Source of the DNA: Deltaproteobacteria bacterium
GTDB taxonomy: Bacteria > Desulfobacterota > Desulfuromonadia > Geobacterales > Pseudopelobacteraceae
Length of the DNA stretch: 64,000 bases
Reading direction: 5' to 3'
Assembly: GCA_019162745.1 (NCBI GenBank)
Contig: JAFLLC010000072.1
Location: forward strand, 49,509-113,508
Position numbers and translations under genes: made by a program. Each line of letters starts with the position of its first letter. Positions within the stretch are counted from its first letter, which is position 1. Below are positions 36,594 to 50,739 of this stretch, piece by piece. The notes beneath the pieces were generated by a model. The model did no database searches. It was given only the letters and a program-made list of their open reading frames with translations, and was not told the DNA's origin.

Positions 36594-37691
36594 TTATTTG
36601 CTTAGTATTTTCAAATTTGAAGGAGGAACCAAGCCAGTGCTTATGCCAAAAATAATAGATTTTCCACTGCTTACTAATCCATTGCTATCTACAACATATA
36701 AATAACGAGCTGTAGAATCTGTTGAAAAGGCCCCTTTATTTATTGTTATAGTAATCGATGTTCCATCACTAGACCACGCAGTTGGTATTTGAATCTCACA
36801 AGTGCCACGATTTGACCATGTTGATCCAGAGCAGACCTCAACACGTGAAAGAGTTTTATCTATATACACATCATCAATATATACTGTGCGAGTTCCGTTC
36901 TCGATATAATAAGGCAAAAAAACTTGATTATAATTGGATCGTTGTGCTGCACTATTGAGAGTATTTACCGCTACACTTGAATACTGAGACACCCCATTAC
37001 GCCAAATCTGAACGGCACCATCTGAAGCATTCGGAGTTGATAGTACAGCCCAAGAATCATCTCTAACCCATTGATTCGTAAGCGCACCTGTGTAGACTAA
37101 AGGATGTTCTATTCCTTTATCTGCAAAAGCATACCAATATTCTGGTGCAATTGCAGTATAACCCACAGTAGGCATACTATGAACATCAGCATCACCCCCA
37201 ATACGACCCATTTTAAGATGGTCACCTGTTCCGGGCTGAATCCAATATTTATAACTAAAAAATATTTTACTTTGATTCCCCAATAAACCTGCTTTTGTTC
37301 GGGACCAACAAGGCAAATTATTAAATAACATCTGTTTAGCTGCTTTAGTTCCGGAGTAACTTTTTTCATTTGAAAATATCATTGACGGTGTACCCCCATT
37401 ATTCGAAGCGGCACATTCTATTTGTGTATCCCAGTTTGGTGAGGTGCTTAGTAATTGCCCCGTATTACCTGATTCAAAATTATCCCAAAACAAAGGTGCC
37501 GCAGGAGATTTAGTCCCAAATCCAGTTCCTTGTATTGTTATGCTTTTACCATCGCTAATTGTGCCGCTTACAGCATTAATAATTGGTGCAGCTAGCAAAC
37601 AATTTGCTGATAAAGAGATAATGCCCAATGAAAACAAAAATAACATGATCACGTTCTTAAACACAGAGATTGGTAATATTCTTTTAAACAT
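36594..37691 (-). CDS. Secreted protein of unknown function (IPT/TIG-like N-terminus, LamG-like body)
   Basis: Signal peptide; APIINAVSGTISDGKSITIQGTGFGTKSP; C-terminus VPPSNLKILSK; AGGAGC RBS; GEMM-I riboswitch upstream. Confidence 0.7.
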   Translation of the reverse strand: MFKRILPISVFKNVIMLFLFSLGIISLSANCLLAAPIINAVSGTISDGKSITIQGTGFGTKSPAAPLFWDNFESGNTGQLLSTSPNWDTQIECAASNNGGTPSMIFSNEKSYSGTKAAKQMLFNNLPCWSRTKAGLLGNQSKIFFSYKYWIQPGTGDHLKMGRIGGDADVHSMPTVGYTAIAPEYWYAFADKGIEHPLVYTGALTNQWVRDDSWAVLSTPNASDGAVQIWRNGVSQYSSVAVNTLNSAAQRSNYNQVFLPYYIENGTRTVYIDDVYIDKTLSRVEVCSGSTWSNRGTCEIQIPTAWSSDGTSITITINKGAFSTDSTARYLYVVDSNGLVSSGKSIIFGISTGLVPPSNLKILSK

Positions 37692-37943
37692 TATTTAGCT
37701 CCTTTTAACCTGGATGGATTAGTCAGCAATATGCTTTTTGAAATCCCTATAAACTCATGCAGTACATCATGACACCTCCTGATCTCTGCTATTCGCCACA
37801 TGTAACCTTTTCATCTCTAGGAAAATGGAAGGTTGATTGGCACTATTTATCAGTAGAGCGTGCCTCGTGCAATGGAGTAAATTTTTACGGTTTAAATCGA
37901 TCACACGGATCAAATAATTCATGTGATTCACATCATCAAAAAC

Positions 37944-38056
37944 AAAAAAGCCGGGTGCCGAATACGTGTAGTTGTATTTCGGCAACCCGGCTGTCTCGTT
38001 AAGACCCTGTAGGCTTTCCGCCCCATCCTCACGGATGGTTTAGTATTATCGTGTAC
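37944..38056 (-). ncRNA. GEMM-I riboswitch, A20-type (GEMM-Ib, 3',3'-cGAMP-like), with intrinsic terminator
   Basis: Minus strand: GTACACGATAATACTAAACCATCCGTGAGGATGGGGCGGAAAGCCTACAGGGTCTTAACGAGACAGCCGGGTTGCCGAAATACAACTACACGTATTCGGCACCCGGCTTTTTT. Confidence 0.92.
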
Positions 38057-38106
38057 TTCTGTTACTATTCTTATGTATTTTATAGCATGGTGCATGTGGC
38101 ATCCGA

Positions 38107-38122
38107 TGTGATTGGCATCACA
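38107..38122 (-). promoter_or_regulatory. CRP/FNR-family-like operator upstream of the riboswitch promoter
   Basis: TGTGATGCCAATCACA (minus strand) matches TGTGA-N6-TCACA; TATAAAAT lies about 30 nt downstream. Confidence 0.65.
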
Positions 38123-38170: not shown

Positions 38171-38586
38171 TCATTTACTATCCGGCATTACTTCAAAAAA
38201 AGGTTTGAGCGATGGATCATCGGCAATGTCTTCTGGAGTGATGCAAGTACCGGTCTTCTTTTGGAAGGCTATCCCGATGGTATTAAAACATTCCTCAACA
38301 AACTCGGAACAGATATATTCCTCATTTTTGGAATATCTACCTATACCGGTGGCAATTCGCAGTGCTATCTTGGCAATTTCGGCCTTGTCGTATTTGCGGT
38401 TGAGCAGGTCTACTGCTTTGCCAAGCATATTGTCTATTCTCGCCGAATCAAGAGTGGTAGTAAGGCGGCCTAAATAGAGTTTGCCATTATATCCATTCCC
38501 GCTGTTTTCATAGTTGGTTAGGTAGTGTGAAAGCGGCACGGCTCGAATGCCGTCGTCTTCTACACTCTCTAATACGACAACCCTGC
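38171..38586 (-). pseudogene. 5'-truncated YiiX/NlpC-P60-like hydrolase remnant, cut by the IS91-like element
   Basis: Frame stays open upstream of the GTG as ...SRVVVLESVEDDGIRAVPLSHYL and meets a stop inside the element's terminal repeat; EYICSEFVEECFNTIG typical of YiiX-like proteins. Confidence 0.65.
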
Positions 38587-38669: not shown

Positions 38670-38744
38670 GTCTCTTCAAATATTTGTCTTTCCCATACCT
38701 TCTTCATGGCCTCTGGCCCAAATCCATTGAAGAGGAGAAAGATC

Positions 38745-39359
38745 ATGACCTTGTTGAGACGAAGAATGTATGAAGATTTGCAACTTGCCGGGTATGCACT
38801 GAAGACCCAGAAGAGCTATGTTGACGCTGTGCAGAGATTGGCTGTCATTACGTCGATCCGCAAGCCGGTGGTGCAGATGACCTTAACGATCATCTACTCC
38901 TGTGGTCTGCGAGTATCGGAAGCAGTCCGTCTCAAAGTCGAGGATATCGATGGTGAGCGGCGTCTACTGTGGGTGCGTGACAGCAAAGGTGGTAAAGACC
39001 GGAGCGTACCGCTTTCCGAGCCGACTCTGACACAACTACGAAAGTTCTGGCGTAACACCAGGACAAAGGAGTGGCTCTTTCCGGGATCGGACGGAGAACA
39101 CATCAACATCGCCACGGTGCAGGGTGCTTTCAAAACGGCTCTTCTTGAGAGTGGTATCAACAAGAAGGCGTCCGTACATTCGCTTCGACATTCCTTTGCC
39201 ACCCATCTTCTTGAATGCGGGGTCGATATCCGCATTATCCAAAAGATTCTGGGGCATGGGAGCATAATAACCACCTGCATCTACACCCATCTGACCGACA
39301 AGATCACTGACCATCTGAGCAAAACCCTCAATCATCTGATGGCCGATCTGTTGTCATGA
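38745..39359 (+). CDS. Tyrosine recombinase with an apparently shortened core-binding domain
   Basis: GAGGAG RBS before ATG 38745; YEDLQLAGYALKTQKSYVDAVQRLA then directly VITSIRKPVVQMTLTIIYSCGLRVSEAV; HSLRHSFATHLLE, ILGHGS, IYTHL. Confidence 0.85.
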   Translation: MTLLRRRMYEDLQLAGYALKTQKSYVDAVQRLAVITSIRKPVVQMTLTIIYSCGLRVSEAVRLKVEDIDGERRLLWVRDSKGGKDRSVPLSEPTLTQLRKFWRNTRTKEWLFPGSDGEHINIATVQGAFKTALLESGINKKASVHSLRHSFATHLLECGVDIRIIQKILGHGSIITTCIYTHLTDKITDHLSKTLNHLMADLLS

Positions 39360-40477
39360 TCGAGCTTGCCGACATTGTAGCCAAACACGGAAGAGAGTAC
39401 CTGAATGAATTCGGCGAGCGGATGTTGCCAAGCCATAAACGGGTGCTTGCCGACATACTCGCCTGCCGGACGGAAAGCATGGGCGGACACCTTGCCGAAT
39501 GCGAAGTGTGCGGCCATCAGCAGTACTCTTATCATTCCTGCAAAAACAGAAGCTGTCCCAAATGCCACACCAGCGACACAAAGCGTTGGTTGGAAAAACG
39601 GGAAGCAGAACTGCTTCCCGTCCGCTACTTCCACGTTGTCTTCACCCTTCCCCAAGAACTGAGAGACATCGTGCGAAGTAATCAAAGGAAACTCTACGCA
39701 GTCCTGATTCAAGCAGCGTCGGAAATGCTTATGAAGCTTGCCCTTGATCCCAAACATGTCGGCGGACAGCTCGCCATACTTGCTGTGTTACATACCTGGA
39801 CTCGCGCCATGGAGTTTAATCCTCACGTCCATATGCTGGTTCCCGCCGGTGGTTTGGACAAGGAGGGTGACTGGCCCACAACGAGAAAGAAGTGGCTTGT
39901 TCCGGTAAAAGCACTGTCCAAGCTATTCCGTGCACGGTTTATGAAACTTGCCTATAAGGCGCTGCCCGAAGAGAGCTTTCCGGGAGTGGTCTGGAAAAAG
40001 GAGTGGGTGGTGTACTGCAAACCACCGCTGACCAACTCAAAAAAAGTTCTTCGTTATCTCGGGCGCTATGTCCACCGTATCGCCATTACCAACAGTCGGA
40101 TCGAGTCAATGGATAATAGCAATGTGACATTCCGCTATCAGGAGAGCGCCACGGGAAAGCAGAAAAAGATGACCCTGACTGCCAGGGAGTTTCTGCGTCG
40201 TTACCTCCAGCATGTCCTGCCGCAGGGGTTCCATAAGGTACGGTACTACGGTCTGCTCAGCCCGGCCAATCGTACTACTTTAAAAAGGGTGCAACTACTC
40301 CTGGCACCAAGAAGGAAGATAACTCCAGATGACATTGAAGAGGGACAAGCGAAGCCGATAGACAAACATCTGTGCCCCTGCTGCTCGGAAGGGATCATGG
40401 TGGTGATCTCCTCTATACCGAGAAAATCACGCAGCCCGCCGCAAGGAGACATGAGTCCGGCTACAGCAATGGCCTGA
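39356..40477 (+). CDS. IS91-family transposase (zinc-binding, HUH)
   Basis: CEVCGHQQYSYHSCKNRSCPKC, MEFNPHVHMLVPAGG (HUH), YLGRYVHRIAI. Confidence 0.95.
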   Translation: MIELADIVAKHGREYLNEFGERMLPSHKRVLADILACRTESMGGHLAECEVCGHQQYSYHSCKNRSCPKCHTSDTKRWLEKREAELLPVRYFHVVFTLPQELRDIVRSNQRKLYAVLIQAASEMLMKLALDPKHVGGQLAILAVLHTWTRAMEFNPHVHMLVPAGGLDKEGDWPTTRKKWLVPVKALSKLFRARFMKLAYKALPEESFPGVVWKKEWVVYCKPPLTNSKKVLRYLGRYVHRIAITNSRIESMDNSNVTFRYQESATGKQKKMTLTAREFLRRYLQHVLPQGFHKVRYYGLLSPANRTTLKRVQLLLAPRRKITPDDIEEGQAKPIDKHLCPCCSEGIMVVISSIPRKSRSPPQGDMSPATAMA

Positions 40478-45952: not shown

Positions 45953-46066
45953 CCTGAAATTTAATCCCAACCCCTCTTTTACCAGAGAGTAAACACTGCT
46001 CCAGGGCTATATGCTGACGCCATATTTACTCTCATAACTGCAATATCAATCCAGTCCCTCCTTTTA

Positions 46067-46080
46067 GTGACACCAATCAC
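46067..46080 (+). promoter_or_regulatory. CRP/FNR-like operator, riboswitch module 1
   Basis: GTGACACCAATCAC (GTGA-N6-TCAC); GATAGT (-10-like) at 46103. Confidence 0.5.
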
Positions 46081-46124
46081 ATTAATTAAACCGCAGTTGT
46101 CCGATAGTACAAACAAAAGAAGTG

Positions 46125-46273
46125 CTGTTTCCGAAGAGGTAAACTCAGGGTAACCTGAGGACACAAAGCTGCGGATCCTGAATTATTCTAGACAAATATC
46201 AGGATGGCCGGGTTGGCGAAGGAACAGGTTCACCGTAGTTAATTCAACTACGTCGGACTGTCCCTTTTTTTTT
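46125..46273 (+). ncRNA. Cyclic di-GMP-I (GEMM-I) riboswitch, G20-type, with terminator
   Basis: GAAGAGGTAAACTCAGGGTAACCTGAGGACACAAAGCTGCGGATCCTGA...TCAGGATGGCCGGGTTGGCG; GTAA tetraloop; terminator GGAACAG...CTGTCCC-T9. Confidence 0.9.
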
Positions 46274-46320: not shown

Positions 46321-47391
46321 ATGAAAACAGGTTTAAACACGAGAACCATCAATACTGCAAAATATTTATCCGGCATCCTGCTGAGTCTATTTATTACAGC
46401 TTCGCTCTCGTCAATAGTATTCGCCGCGCCAGCCTCTGATCCTCAAGCCTCTTCAAAAACTCAAGCAGTGCTGGATTATATTACCAATCTTCCTAATAAA
46501 TCGGACAATCGAGTCGTGTCCGGGCAGCATACCTTCATGACCGATAACCTTATTGAAAACATTCACACCGATAGCGGTAAGTACGTCGGTCTTGTAGGGA
46601 TTGATTATTTCTACCAGAACAACAGTTCAACTAATAACCAAGTAATCGCCTGGTCGAACGCTAATACACTGATCAGTGTTGTCGATCATATGAACAATCC
46701 GTTAACCGGGGGAGACGCGTGGGATACTACCACTGTTGACCTGACACAGATGATTACTCCGGGTACCGCTCTCAACAATACGTTTAAGGGTGTTCTGGAC
46801 AAAATAGCCACAGGACTTACCACCTTGCAAAGCAATAACGTTGTTGTCCTCTTTCGACCTTTTCATGAGATGAACGGGGACTGGTTCTGGTGGGGAAACA
46901 AAAATACGACGCAATTCAAAAATCTATGGGTATACACCTTCAACTATCTGACGCAAACCAAAGGTCTTCATAATCTGCTATGGGTCTGGAGTTCCAACGC
47001 TGATCTTACTTGGACGTATTATCCCGGTTCGCAGTATGTGGATATTGTCGGAGTGGATCGATACTCTGCCCTTACCATACCAAAAGTAGCGGGATATGAC
47101 CAATTGTCCACATACAACAAACCCTTCGGTTTAACAGAATGGGGAGCGTGCGGTCCCGCTGGAGGATGCAGCCCGATGGATATTTCACCCATGATCGCAA
47201 GCATCAAGACCAATATGCCAAAAACTGCGTTTTTCATGGCGTGGGCCGAGGCTTTCAGTTTGGACTATAATACGGGCACTTCAAAGCTTCTGGCTGATCC
47301 CTGGGTTGTAACAAGAGATGAGATCGTGATTTCTGCTTCTCCGCAGCCACTGCCTGCACCGACCGGGTTACATATAGTCTCGGCACAATAG
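46321..47391 (+). CDS. Secreted GH26-like glycosidase (beta-mannanase type)
   Basis: Signal peptide; VVSGQHTF, VVLFRPFHEMNGDWFWWG, FGLTEWG; C-terminus LPAPTGLHIVSAQ. Confidence 0.9.
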   Translation: MKTGLNTRTINTAKYLSGILLSLFITASLSSIVFAAPASDPQASSKTQAVLDYITNLPNKSDNRVVSGQHTFMTDNLIENIHTDSGKYVGLVGIDYFYQNNSSTNNQVIAWSNANTLISVVDHMNNPLTGGDAWDTTTVDLTQMITPGTALNNTFKGVLDKIATGLTTLQSNNVVVLFRPFHEMNGDWFWWGNKNTTQFKNLWVYTFNYLTQTKGLHNLLWVWSSNADLTWTYYPGSQYVDIVGVDRYSALTIPKVAGYDQLSTYNKPFGLTEWGACGPAGGCSPMDISPMIASIKTNMPKTAFFMAWAEAFSLDYNTGTSKLLADPWVVTRDEIVISASPQPLPAPTGLHIVSAQ

Positions 47392-47490
47392 TCATGATGT
47401 CTATTGTTTGTGTGAAAATATTATTTAAGAACAGTCAAATGAGCTTCAAATAGATAGTTAATATTATATAATTAACTGAGTGATTATACA

Positions 47491-47504
47491 GTGACATGTG
47501 TCAC
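47491..47504 (+). promoter_or_regulatory. CRP/FNR-like operator, riboswitch module 2
   Basis: GTGACATGTGTCAC; same spacing to CCGATAGT as in module 1. Confidence 0.6.
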
Positions 47505-47549
47505 ATTAATTAAAACGCAGTTGTCCGATAGTATGAACAAATGAAAGTG

Positions 47550-47699
47550 CTGTTTCCGAAGAGGTAAACCCAGGGTAACCTGGGGACACAAAGCTGCGGG
47601 TCCTGAAATTATTCTAGGTATATTTCAGGATGGCCGGGTTGGCGAGGAACAGGTTCCCTGGTGGTTAGTTTAACTACAGCGGACTGTCCCTTTTTTTTT
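47550..47699 (+). ncRNA. Cyclic di-GMP-I (GEMM-I) riboswitch, G20-type, with terminator
   Basis: GAAGAGGTAAACCCAGGGTAACCTGGGGACACAAAGCTGCGGGTCCTGAAA...TTTCAGGATGGCCGGGTTGGCG; terminator GGAACAG...CTGTCCC-T9; compensatory changes versus module 1. Confidence 0.92.
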
Positions 47700-47766: not shown

Positions 47767-50739
47767 ATGAAACGCCATGCCCTCAAAATTCTGCTCTATG
47801 TGTGTATATTCAGCATAGTAACAGCTACGGCTAGTCAGGCAAGAGACGTGACCCTGCAGTGGGACCCCAGTACGGACAGTACTGTTACCGGTTATAAAAT
47901 TAATTACAATGCCGACTCTTCAGCTACACCTTTTAGCGGTACAGGAGCGATCCAAGGTACGTCTCCGTACAATGTCAATAAGGTTACAACCGCCACCGTG
48001 ACCGGTCTTGATCCTGGTCGGGCCTATTATTTTGCAGTCACTGCCTACAATGCCGCAGGGACGCAGAGCTCTTATTCCAACATCGTTAATGTTGCTGAAG
48101 CTACCCCGCCGACAGTATCTATTACATCTCCCGCGACAAATACGACCGTAAGCGGCACAGTTTCAGTGACCGCCAGTGCCACCGATAATGTGGGGGTGAC
48201 TAAAGTCGAGTTCTATCTGAACGGCGTGCTAAAGACCACCGATACGTCAACTCCGTATTTGTATTCGCTGAATACGGCTACTCTGACATCCGGGACGTAC
48301 ACGCTCATGGCCAAGGCCTATGATGCGGCCGGGAATGTTGGCCAGTCGAGTAGCGTTTCCGTCACGGTAGTTAATGATACAACAGCGCCGACAGTTTCCC
48401 TTACATCACCTGCCAACAATGCCACCGTAAGCGCAACAACAACAATTGTTGCAAGCGCTAGCGACAACGTTGGTGTGAGCAAGGTCGAATTTTACCGAAG
48501 CGGTACGCTTTTGTACGCAACCAATGTGGCTCCGTTCAGTTACGGCTGGAATACGTCTACAGTTGCTAACGGCAGCTACACCTTGACTGCCAAAGCTTAC
48601 GACAATACCGGAAATGTCGCTACGTCTGCGAATGTTGTCGTGACGGTGAACAATACAGTTGCGGATGTTACCGTTCCGGCTGTCTCCGTGACTGCTCCTG
48701 CCGCCGGTGCTACTGTCAGCGGAACCGTTTCTGTTGCTGCTTCCGCCTCGGATAACATTGGCGTCAGCAAGGTCGAGTTCTTCGTCAACAATGTTCTTGC
48801 CGCCACTGACACAGCATCCCCCTTCACATACAGCTGGAATACCGCTTTATTGTCCAATGGCTCCTATAGTGTAATGGCTAAAGCGTATGACGCAGTCGGT
48901 AATATCGGCCAGTCTGCCAGCGTGTCAGCTACCGTCAGCAATGGTGTGACACCGCCTGCAGGGACGATAACAGCCGTCTTTGGTAATGCTGCAGGTTCCA
49001 CGTACGCTAATACCGTTGAGGACACATTTCTCAATATTAACACCAATGTTAACGCAACCAGCGCGGTTCTCAATACCTACACCTGGCCGGCCGCCAAACC
49101 TGCCAACGCCATCCTGATGAACTGGGATCTATCCGCTCTTCCTGCCGGCGCCGTCATCCAGAGCGCCACACTCAGCCTGTACATGAGCGCAAGCGGTGGA
49201 GACGCCCTCTACGAAATGCCGGTATCTGCTATAATCAACAAATCGCCGGTCATCGCCAAGAGCAACGGCACCACCTATGATGGAACCAACGCCTGGACAG
49301 CAAGCAGTGTGCCTTATAACAGTATTCCTCTGGCACAGTCCGATATCGCTACAGCCGTTGATGCCCCTCTTGTCGACAAGACCATCGGCTATAAAAACTG
49401 GAACGTAACGAGCCTCGTCAAGGGTTGGATGGCAGCAGCGACCAGTAACAAGGGACTATTACTGAACTCGTCAAGCAAAGCCAGTTCAGACAGTAATCGC
49501 GTGTTTGCCTCCAGTGAAGCAGTTGATGCCAGCCAGAGACCCAAGCTTGTCGTATTATATACTCTGGCATCTGATACCACAGCCCCGGCGGTAGCAATTA
49601 CAGCTCCGGGTAACAGCACAACTGTCAGCGGTACGGTGGCTGTCAGCGCAACAGCATCTGACAATGTTGCCGTGACCAAGGTCGAGTTTTATGTGAATGG
49701 AACGCTGCAAACTTCAGACAGCGCATCCCCCTATTCCTTCAGCTGGAATACAACAGCAGTTGCCAATGATTCTTACGCCATAACCGCCAAGGCTTATGAT
49801 GCAGCGGGTAATGTCGGACAGTCGGCAAGCGCGAATGTCACAGTAAATAATGACAAAACAGCGCCTGTAACCTCTATTACCTCTCCTGCAGGTGGTACGA
49901 CTGTCAGCGGCACCGTTGCAGTATCATCCTCCGCCTCTGATAATATGGCGGTCACCAAGGTTGAGTTCTATGTCAACAGTGTGCTGCAGGCGACTGATAG
50001 CGCATCTCCCTACAGCTTTAACTGGAACTCCGCAACATTGACCAGTGGTTCATATATTCTGATGACCAAGGCGTATGATGCCGCCGGTAATGTCGGCCAG
50101 TCCGCAAGCGTAACAGTTGCGGTTAAAAATACCATCACCGCTGTTTTTGGTAATGCAACAGGAGCCAACTACACCAACACGATCGAAGATACGTTTATAA
50201 ACATCAATACAAACGTTAATGCGACCAACAAAGTGCTCAACACATATACCTGGCCAGCTGCCAAGCCGGCTAATGCAATCATAATGAAATGGAATGTATC
50301 GGCCATCCCGGCCAATGCCCAGATAGTAAGCGCCACACTCAGCCTGTACATGACAGCCAGTGGCGGAGATGCACAGTATGAAATACCGGTGTCAAAGATA
50401 ATCAACAAAACCCCGGTTGTCACCGCTAGTACCGGCAAAACATACGATGGGACCAACGCCTGGACAGCAAGCAGTGTTCCTTACGGTGGAATTCCCCTCG
50501 CACAGTCCGATATCGCAACTGCCGTTGCTGCACTGCTTGTGGACAAAACCACTGGCTACAAAAACTGGGACGTAACAAGTATTATTAAGGACTGGATGGC
50601 AACACCGGCAAATAACAGGGGTCTGTTGGTGAACTCATCAAGCAAAGCCACTGCTGACAGTAACCGCGTGTTTGCTTCCAGTGAGGCTGACAATGCCGCA
50701 CAGAGACCTAAACTGGTCGTGACTTATGTCTTACCGTAG
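47767..50739 (+). CDS. Secreted Fn3/Ig-like tandem repeat protein with two DNRLRE-type domains
   Basis: Signal peptide; Fn3 (VTLQWDPSTDSTVTGYKINY), repeated ITSPATNTTVSGTVSVTASATDNVGVTKVEFYLNG, two AVFGNAxGxxYxNTxEDTFxNINTNVNAT...RPKLVV units. Confidence 0.88.
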   Translation: MKRHALKILLYVCIFSIVTATASQARDVTLQWDPSTDSTVTGYKINYNADSSATPFSGTGAIQGTSPYNVNKVTTATVTGLDPGRAYYFAVTAYNAAGTQSSYSNIVNVAEATPPTVSITSPATNTTVSGTVSVTASATDNVGVTKVEFYLNGVLKTTDTSTPYLYSLNTATLTSGTYTLMAKAYDAAGNVGQSSSVSVTVVNDTTAPTVSLTSPANNATVSATTTIVASASDNVGVSKVEFYRSGTLLYATNVAPFSYGWNTSTVANGSYTLTAKAYDNTGNVATSANVVVTVNNTVADVTVPAVSVTAPAAGATVSGTVSVAASASDNIGVSKVEFFVNNVLAATDTASPFTYSWNTALLSNGSYSVMAKAYDAVGNIGQSASVSATVSNGVTPPAGTITAVFGNAAGSTYANTVEDTFLNINTNVNATSAVLNTYTWPAAKPANAILMNWDLSALPAGAVIQSATLSLYMSASGGDALYEMPVSAIINKSPVIAKSNGTTYDGTNAWTASSVPYNSIPLAQSDIATAVDAPLVDKTIGYKNWNVTSLVKGWMAAATSNKGLLLNSSSKASSDSNRVFASSEAVDASQRPKLVVLYTLASDTTAPAVAITAPGNSTTVSGTVAVSATASDNVAVTKVEFYVNGTLQTSDSASPYSFSWNTTAVANDSYAITAKAYDAAGNVGQSASANVTVNNDKTAPVTSITSPAGGTTVSGTVAVSSSASDNMAVTKVEFYVNSVLQATDSASPYSFNWNSATLTSGSYILMTKAYDAAGNVGQSASVTVAVKNTITAVFGNATGANYTNTIEDTFININTNVNATNKVLNTYTWPAAKPANAIIMKWNVSAIPANAQIVSATLSLYMTASGGDAQYEIPVSKIINKTPVVTASTGKTYDGTNAWTASSVPYGGIPLAQSDIATAVAALLVDKTTGYKNWDVTSIIKDWMATPANNRGLLVNSSSKATADSNRVFASSEADNAAQRPKLVVTYVLP

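Follow-up and report, generated by a model that had tools for sequence, protein, structure and literature searches.

A GEMM-Ib riboswitch with a candidate Crp-type operator in its promoter at a polysaccharide locus of a Geobacterales bacterium

Geobacter sulfurreducens carries 17 GEMM-I elements, and binding of cGAMP has been shown for 12 of them (PMC8835794). Such cGAMP riboswitches govern the access of Geobacter-type bacteria to metal oxides and surfaces. The pilM cGAMP riboswitch is an ON switch whose aptamer and terminator cannot form together, and a U15-G38 pair adjoins its ligand pocket (PMC9262584). In G. sulfurreducens, deletion of gacA lowers the transcripts behind GEMM-Ib elements 2- to 16-fold, and more termination occurs near the recognition site (PMC6456294). 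In the open-access literature that we searched, no description of promoter activation of cGAMP riboswitches was found.

We analysed a stretch of 64,000 nt (the window) from a Geobacterales genome assembled to about 99% completeness in 237 contigs (4.5 Mb). The features considered are listed in Table 1.

Table 1. Riboswitches, promoter elements and presumed target gene in the window
Feature	Position	Strand	Basis
Crp-type operator TGTGATGCCAATCACA, perfect palindromic half-sites	38107..38122	.	sequence; recurrence before A20 aptamers
Predicted extended -10 element TGCTATAAA	38079..38087	-	sequence; predicted start near 38072
GEMM-I aptamer, A20 (GEMM-Ib, cGAMP) type	37978..38054	-	RF01051 match; A at Vc2 G20 position; C-G at Vc2 G21-C46 pair
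Intrinsic terminator, 5' arm inside aptamer	37944..37992 (hairpin 37992-37949, T run 37949-37944)	-	fold z -5.6
5' leader, terminator to start codon	37692..37943	-	fold z -0.67
Presumed target, 365-aa secreted protein, TIG domain and jelly-roll-like region	36594..37691	-	ORF; PF01833 E 2e-5; low-confidence fold
Second GEMM-I in window, G20 (c-di-GMP) type	46128..46220	+	RF01051 58.7 bits; precedes GH26 glycosidase gene 46321-47391
Third GEMM-I in window, G20 type	47553..47646	+	RF01051 57.9 bits; precedes 990-aa Ig-like surface protein 47767-50739

A preliminary description of the window had proposed a GEMM-I element of the A20 type, and the sequence that it quoted is present on the minus strand where it was placed. 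The proposed GEMM-I core was confirmed with Infernal, by which RF01051 matched 38054-37978 (minus strand) over the full length of the model (positions 1-87) and scored 48.9 bits, where the gathering threshold is 35 (E = 1.6e-6). Model position 11, which we take to be G20 in Vc2 numbering, is occupied in the covariance-model alignment by A, the mark of GEMM-Ib. The pair adjoining A20 is C-G in this aptamer and G-C in the three G20-type copies of the genome; the A claimed at the G20 equivalent is borne out by the alignment. The next pair is U-G, the same as in the pilM switch. Judged by its sequence, the element is a genuine GEMM-Ib riboswitch, ordinary in kind, with cGAMP as its presumed ligand.

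A fold of 117 nt had a free energy of -48.1 kcal/mol (z = -5.6), and none of 200 shuffled sequences was equally stable. It contains a hairpin that competes with the aptamer and is followed by TTTTTT, so that the terminator described earlier as overlapping the 3' part of the aptamer is real. Of the 134 distinct A20 elements in our sample, 132 have the same arrangement, in which the 5' arm of the terminator hairpin lies within the aptamer and a T run follows the hairpin. By the fold and by this common layout, aptamer and terminator of the window element appear mutually exclusive, as in pilM. Because the layout matches pilM, and because of the gacA-deletion data in G. sulfurreducens, we infer with good support that the window element acts as an ON switch.

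The genome holds twelve GEMM-I elements, nine of the A20 and three of the G20 type. Among 58 relatives the A20 pattern occurs in 52, spread over all nine genera, and the reversed pattern in none; the A20 element is therefore a normal feature of the order, and its rarity had been overrated. While the earlier account was right about the switch itself, it overlooked the Crp-type site in the promoter and the two further GEMM-I elements of the window. These two G20 leaders (46066-46220 and 47490-47646) are near-identical, each with a Crp-type site of one mismatch (46066-46081 and 47490-47505, respectively) about 62 nt upstream of its aptamer. The first precedes a gene with a PF02156 match (E = 2.8e-54), and the product of the gene behind the second has Big_7 repeats. 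The terminators of both leaders start adjoining the 3' end of the aptamer, and for this reason these elements may also be ON switches.

Ahead of the A20 switch, a perfect TGTGA-N6-TCACA palindrome lies where a class II Crp site would be expected. A consensus scan yielded no sigma-70 promoter on the switch strand, and the predicted promoter has no evident -35 element; the palindrome is centred roughly 41.5 to 42.5 bp ahead of the predicted start. Perfect sites of this kind occur four times in the 4.5 Mb genome, three of them 69-82 nt upstream of A20 aptamers. When the window's own site is set aside, the chance that two of the three remaining sites would fall at A20 aptamers is about 3e-8. The fourth perfect site (L211, G000:C33:11651-11666) lies amid ordinary membrane and housekeeping-like genes, and no GEMM-I match was found on contig C33.

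The association extends beyond this genome. Across 58 genomes, a perfect site stands at the same spacing ahead of A20 aptamers in 12, as against none in the reversed control. Thirty loci, one per genome and chosen irrespective of the site, contained 34 A20 promoters. Four of these had a site with one mismatch or none 51-100 nt upstream, compared with an expectation of about 0.24 from the rate at the same loci. In a larger set, picked from the A20 list after the motif was known and hence not strictly blind, 16 of 136 A20 promoters (about 12%) matched the site with no more than one mismatch, and no other ordering of the half-site letters exceeded three. The GTGA core was present in 26 of 145 promoters, a set that includes ten loci fetched because they carry this core, compared with at most two for each of 95 other half-sites. 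Order-wide (112 genomes), the core palindrome was counted 72 times before A20 aptamers and three times in the reversed control; the 72 cases come from 47 genomes, which represent 15 of the 25 genera. The operator nevertheless precedes only a minority of A20 aptamers. In related promoters, the best -10 match most often lies 29.5 nt from the palindrome centre (11 of 26), as is typical of class II Crp activation from a site centred at -41.5; the distance is 30.5 nt in the window. These results point to a Crp-type operator that is conserved at some of the A20 riboswitch promoters and apparently undescribed in the open-access literature searched. They suggest that two signals may jointly control cell-surface genes.

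Crp-family proteins that might bind the operator were collected with the PF13545 profile. The recognition helix of E. coli CRP reads RET..R. Two proteins of this genome resemble it, with RETATR in L178 (contig C18) and RETVSR in L179 (contig C4, outside the window), and by this RETxxR helix they are candidate Crp-type activators. A third has SET in the recognition helix, as in FNR-like proteins. Arg180 decides the recognition of TGTGA (PMC545781). Inspected by eye, neither L178 nor L179 seems to have the Arg-Ser found in the E. coli cAMP pocket. L178 is encoded some 4 kb away from a further A20 switch with an operator, and near an exosortase-like gene. At L212 (G000:C18:36500-44622), a Crp-family gene whose product has a CRP-like recognition helix is flanked on one side by an exosortase-like gene and on the other by an A20 switch with an operator, which in turn precedes genes of Ig-like surface proteins.

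The palindrome might instead belong to another Crp/Fnr-family regulon, for example that of an HcpR-like regulator of nitrosative stress, or it might serve repression. Indeed, HcpR of Desulfovibrio uses the identical TGTGA-N6-TCACA motif, but HcpR of Geobacter and Desulfuromonas has TTGAC-type sites and a changed recognition helix, and TGTGA-type HcpR sites are reported absent from Geobacter (PMC1274295, PMC545781). That three of the four perfect sites adjoin riboswitches, and that the spacing to the -10 element is that of class II activation, also speaks against this explanation, which we regard as possible but unlikely.

Activation by a Crp-type protein would be only one of two inputs; the other would depend on the ligand of the switch. 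As would suit a host of GEMM-Ib elements, the genome contains genes of two putative Hypr enzymes, i.e. GGDEF proteins in which serine replaces the canonical cyclase aspartate. The first (L029) is of the GacA type and combines a receiver domain with a GGDEY motif and the diagnostic serine. Its best PDB match is 6d9m, the GGDEF domain of GacA from G. metallireducens (E = 7.5e-61), ahead of every other chain. It is 91% identical to GacA of a Desulfuromonadaceae MAG, which marks the host as an uncultured relative of Geobacter, and the serine is retained in all 30 GacA orthologues checked. The second (L037) has membrane segments, a GGDDF motif and the serine, and is of the type of GSU1937, which makes cGAMP (PMC8835794). 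Its gene directly follows a gene with a cGAMP-type switch (L075, G000:C58:16402-19899). We considered co-transcription of the synthase with this preceding gene and rejected it, as a strong terminator-like repeat separates the two on contig C58. Across relatives, GacA and A20 elements track each other loosely: four genomes lacking an A20 match still have a GacA match, and four A20-bearing relatives have no GacA match at E = 1e-60. The loose co-occurrence is due in part to the fact that nearly all relatives have both. The cGAMP-type GEMM-Ib reading of the preliminary description is thereby supported in those parts that sequence can address, namely the covariance match, A20, the C-G swap, the overlapping terminator and the Hypr enzymes.

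A relaxed cyclic-dinucleotide switch would offer a different account of the signal, if the A20 variant answered mainly or equally to c-di-GMP in the cell. In G. sulfurreducens, the omcST riboswitch responds to both nucleotides (PMC6456294), and the Vc2 G20 position tunes the selectivity between cGAMP and c-di-GMP without being a hard filter (PMC9262584). Moreover, the canonical aspartate is present in about 20 GGDEF domains encoded by the genome. However, A20 and the pocket-side G-U pair of the window aptamer are those of characterized cGAMP switches, and the genome keeps two serine-type synthases as well as separate G20 copies. We therefore consider a relaxed response quite unlikely and retain cGAMP as the probable ligand.

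The only long ORF in line downstream of the switch is the presumed target gene, and its start codon lies about 250 nt beyond the terminator. In the intervening leader no unusual structure was found by folding; a possible seven-codon ORF (MMYCMSL) with a strong ribosome-binding site is located at 37747-37770 (minus strand). The product had been described as an uncharacterized secreted protein. The ORF and a signal-like N-terminus are present, but the protein is not wholly uncharacterized, as it contains an IPT/TIG domain. No relatives were found in named genomes, and matches occur in six of the 58 genomes, the window's own included. Within flanks of about 1.5 kb around these homologues there was no GEMM-I match, and the conservation of the target therefore does not back the link between switch and gene. 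A single-sequence structure model gave no usable fold (pLDDT 33). With five sequences, the mean pLDDT was 57 and the model resembled, at low confidence, jelly-roll beta-sandwiches related to carbohydrates; its matches to large clostridial toxin complexes reflect the common jelly-roll fold. Because glycosyltransferase genes neighbour the locus, the product is likely a polysaccharide-binding or -cutting surface protein, which the switch would control. Upstream of the switch, at 38706-40477, a tyrosine recombinase gene is followed by a transposase-like gene, presumably of the IS91 type. The pair immediately precedes the gene at 38171-38539, which is on the same strand as the switch and resembles a truncated permuted papain-like amidase.

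The position of this last gene, the long leader and the target homologues without a nearby GEMM-I would fit a hairpin that chiefly ends the transcript of 38171-38539, and the protein gene, 250 nt farther on, would then lie outside the control of the aptamer. Against this stand the -10-like element and the operator between the upstream gene and the aptamer, the lack of any other long ORF in line, and a gap of about 200 nt between another switch in the genome (L074) and its gene. We judge such a role in upstream termination to be very unlikely. That the palindrome stands before aptamers by coincidence is hardly credible in view of its strong excess over permuted and reversed controls and its preferred spacing, even though only about 12% of the sampled A20 promoters carry it.

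On balance we think it likely that the element is a GEMM-Ib transcriptional ON switch that senses 3',3'-cGAMP behind a Crp-type-activated promoter, so that two inputs are needed. A Crp-family protein bound at 38107-38122 would recruit RNA polymerase to a promoter with a -10 element and without an evident -35 element, and the nascent RNA would fold into the aptamer. Without cGAMP, the downstream CCCGGCT would capture the 3' strand of the aptamer (from AGCCGGG), and transcription would stop at the T run. When GacA or the GGDDF enzyme supplies cGAMP, the aptamer would keep its 3' strand and the gene of the TIG-domain protein would be transcribed. Output would thus require both the Crp-type signal and cGAMP. 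In this scheme the sequence itself establishes the aptamer with its A20, the overlapping terminator, the operator with its conservation and the synthase genes, while we infer the ligand, the direction of switching, activation by a Crp-type protein and the identity of the protein.

More broadly, there is about an even chance that an undescribed Crp-family activator, not driven by cAMP, has cyclic-dinucleotide riboswitch genes as a main part of its regulon throughout this order of metal reducers and their relatives, and that surface and electron-transfer genes are doubly gated. If this is true, the double gate would combine a protein signal at initiation with cGAMP or c-di-GMP at elongation. The shared operator suggests a concrete and testable second input, and cGAMP need not be the sole signal. 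Since one cGAMP-type switch and two c-di-GMP-type switches lie in a single polysaccharide locus, each with an operator of this type (imperfect in two cases), the locus offers a natural setting for studying how cGAMP and c-di-GMP are kept apart.

The closest described systems share parts of this arrangement. With the Geobacter GEMM-Ib elements (Gs1761/pgcA, Gm0970 and pilM; RF01051), the window element has in common the aptamer consensus, A20 and the pocket-side G-U pair, as well as a terminator that shares the 3' strand of the aptamer and the ON logic (PMC6456294, PMC9262584). Their targets are cytochrome or pilus operons, whereas the presumed target here encodes a secreted protein with a TIG domain and is surrounded by glycosyltransferase genes. 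Unlike these comparators, the window element has a Crp-type operator in its promoter. A partial precedent is gbpA of Vibrio cholerae, a gene with a GEMM-I (Vc1) leader that is subject to Crp-type activation; there, however, c-di-GMP acts independently of Vc1 and the activator is genuine cAMP-CRP (PMC4545359), while the aptamer in the window is of the A20 type. With the HcpR/CRP-type regulon of Desulfovibrio the window site shares the operator sequence TGTGA-N6-TCACA (PMC545781, PMC1274295), but that regulon covers hcp and sulfate-reduction genes, whereas sites of the window type adjoin cyclic-dinucleotide riboswitches.
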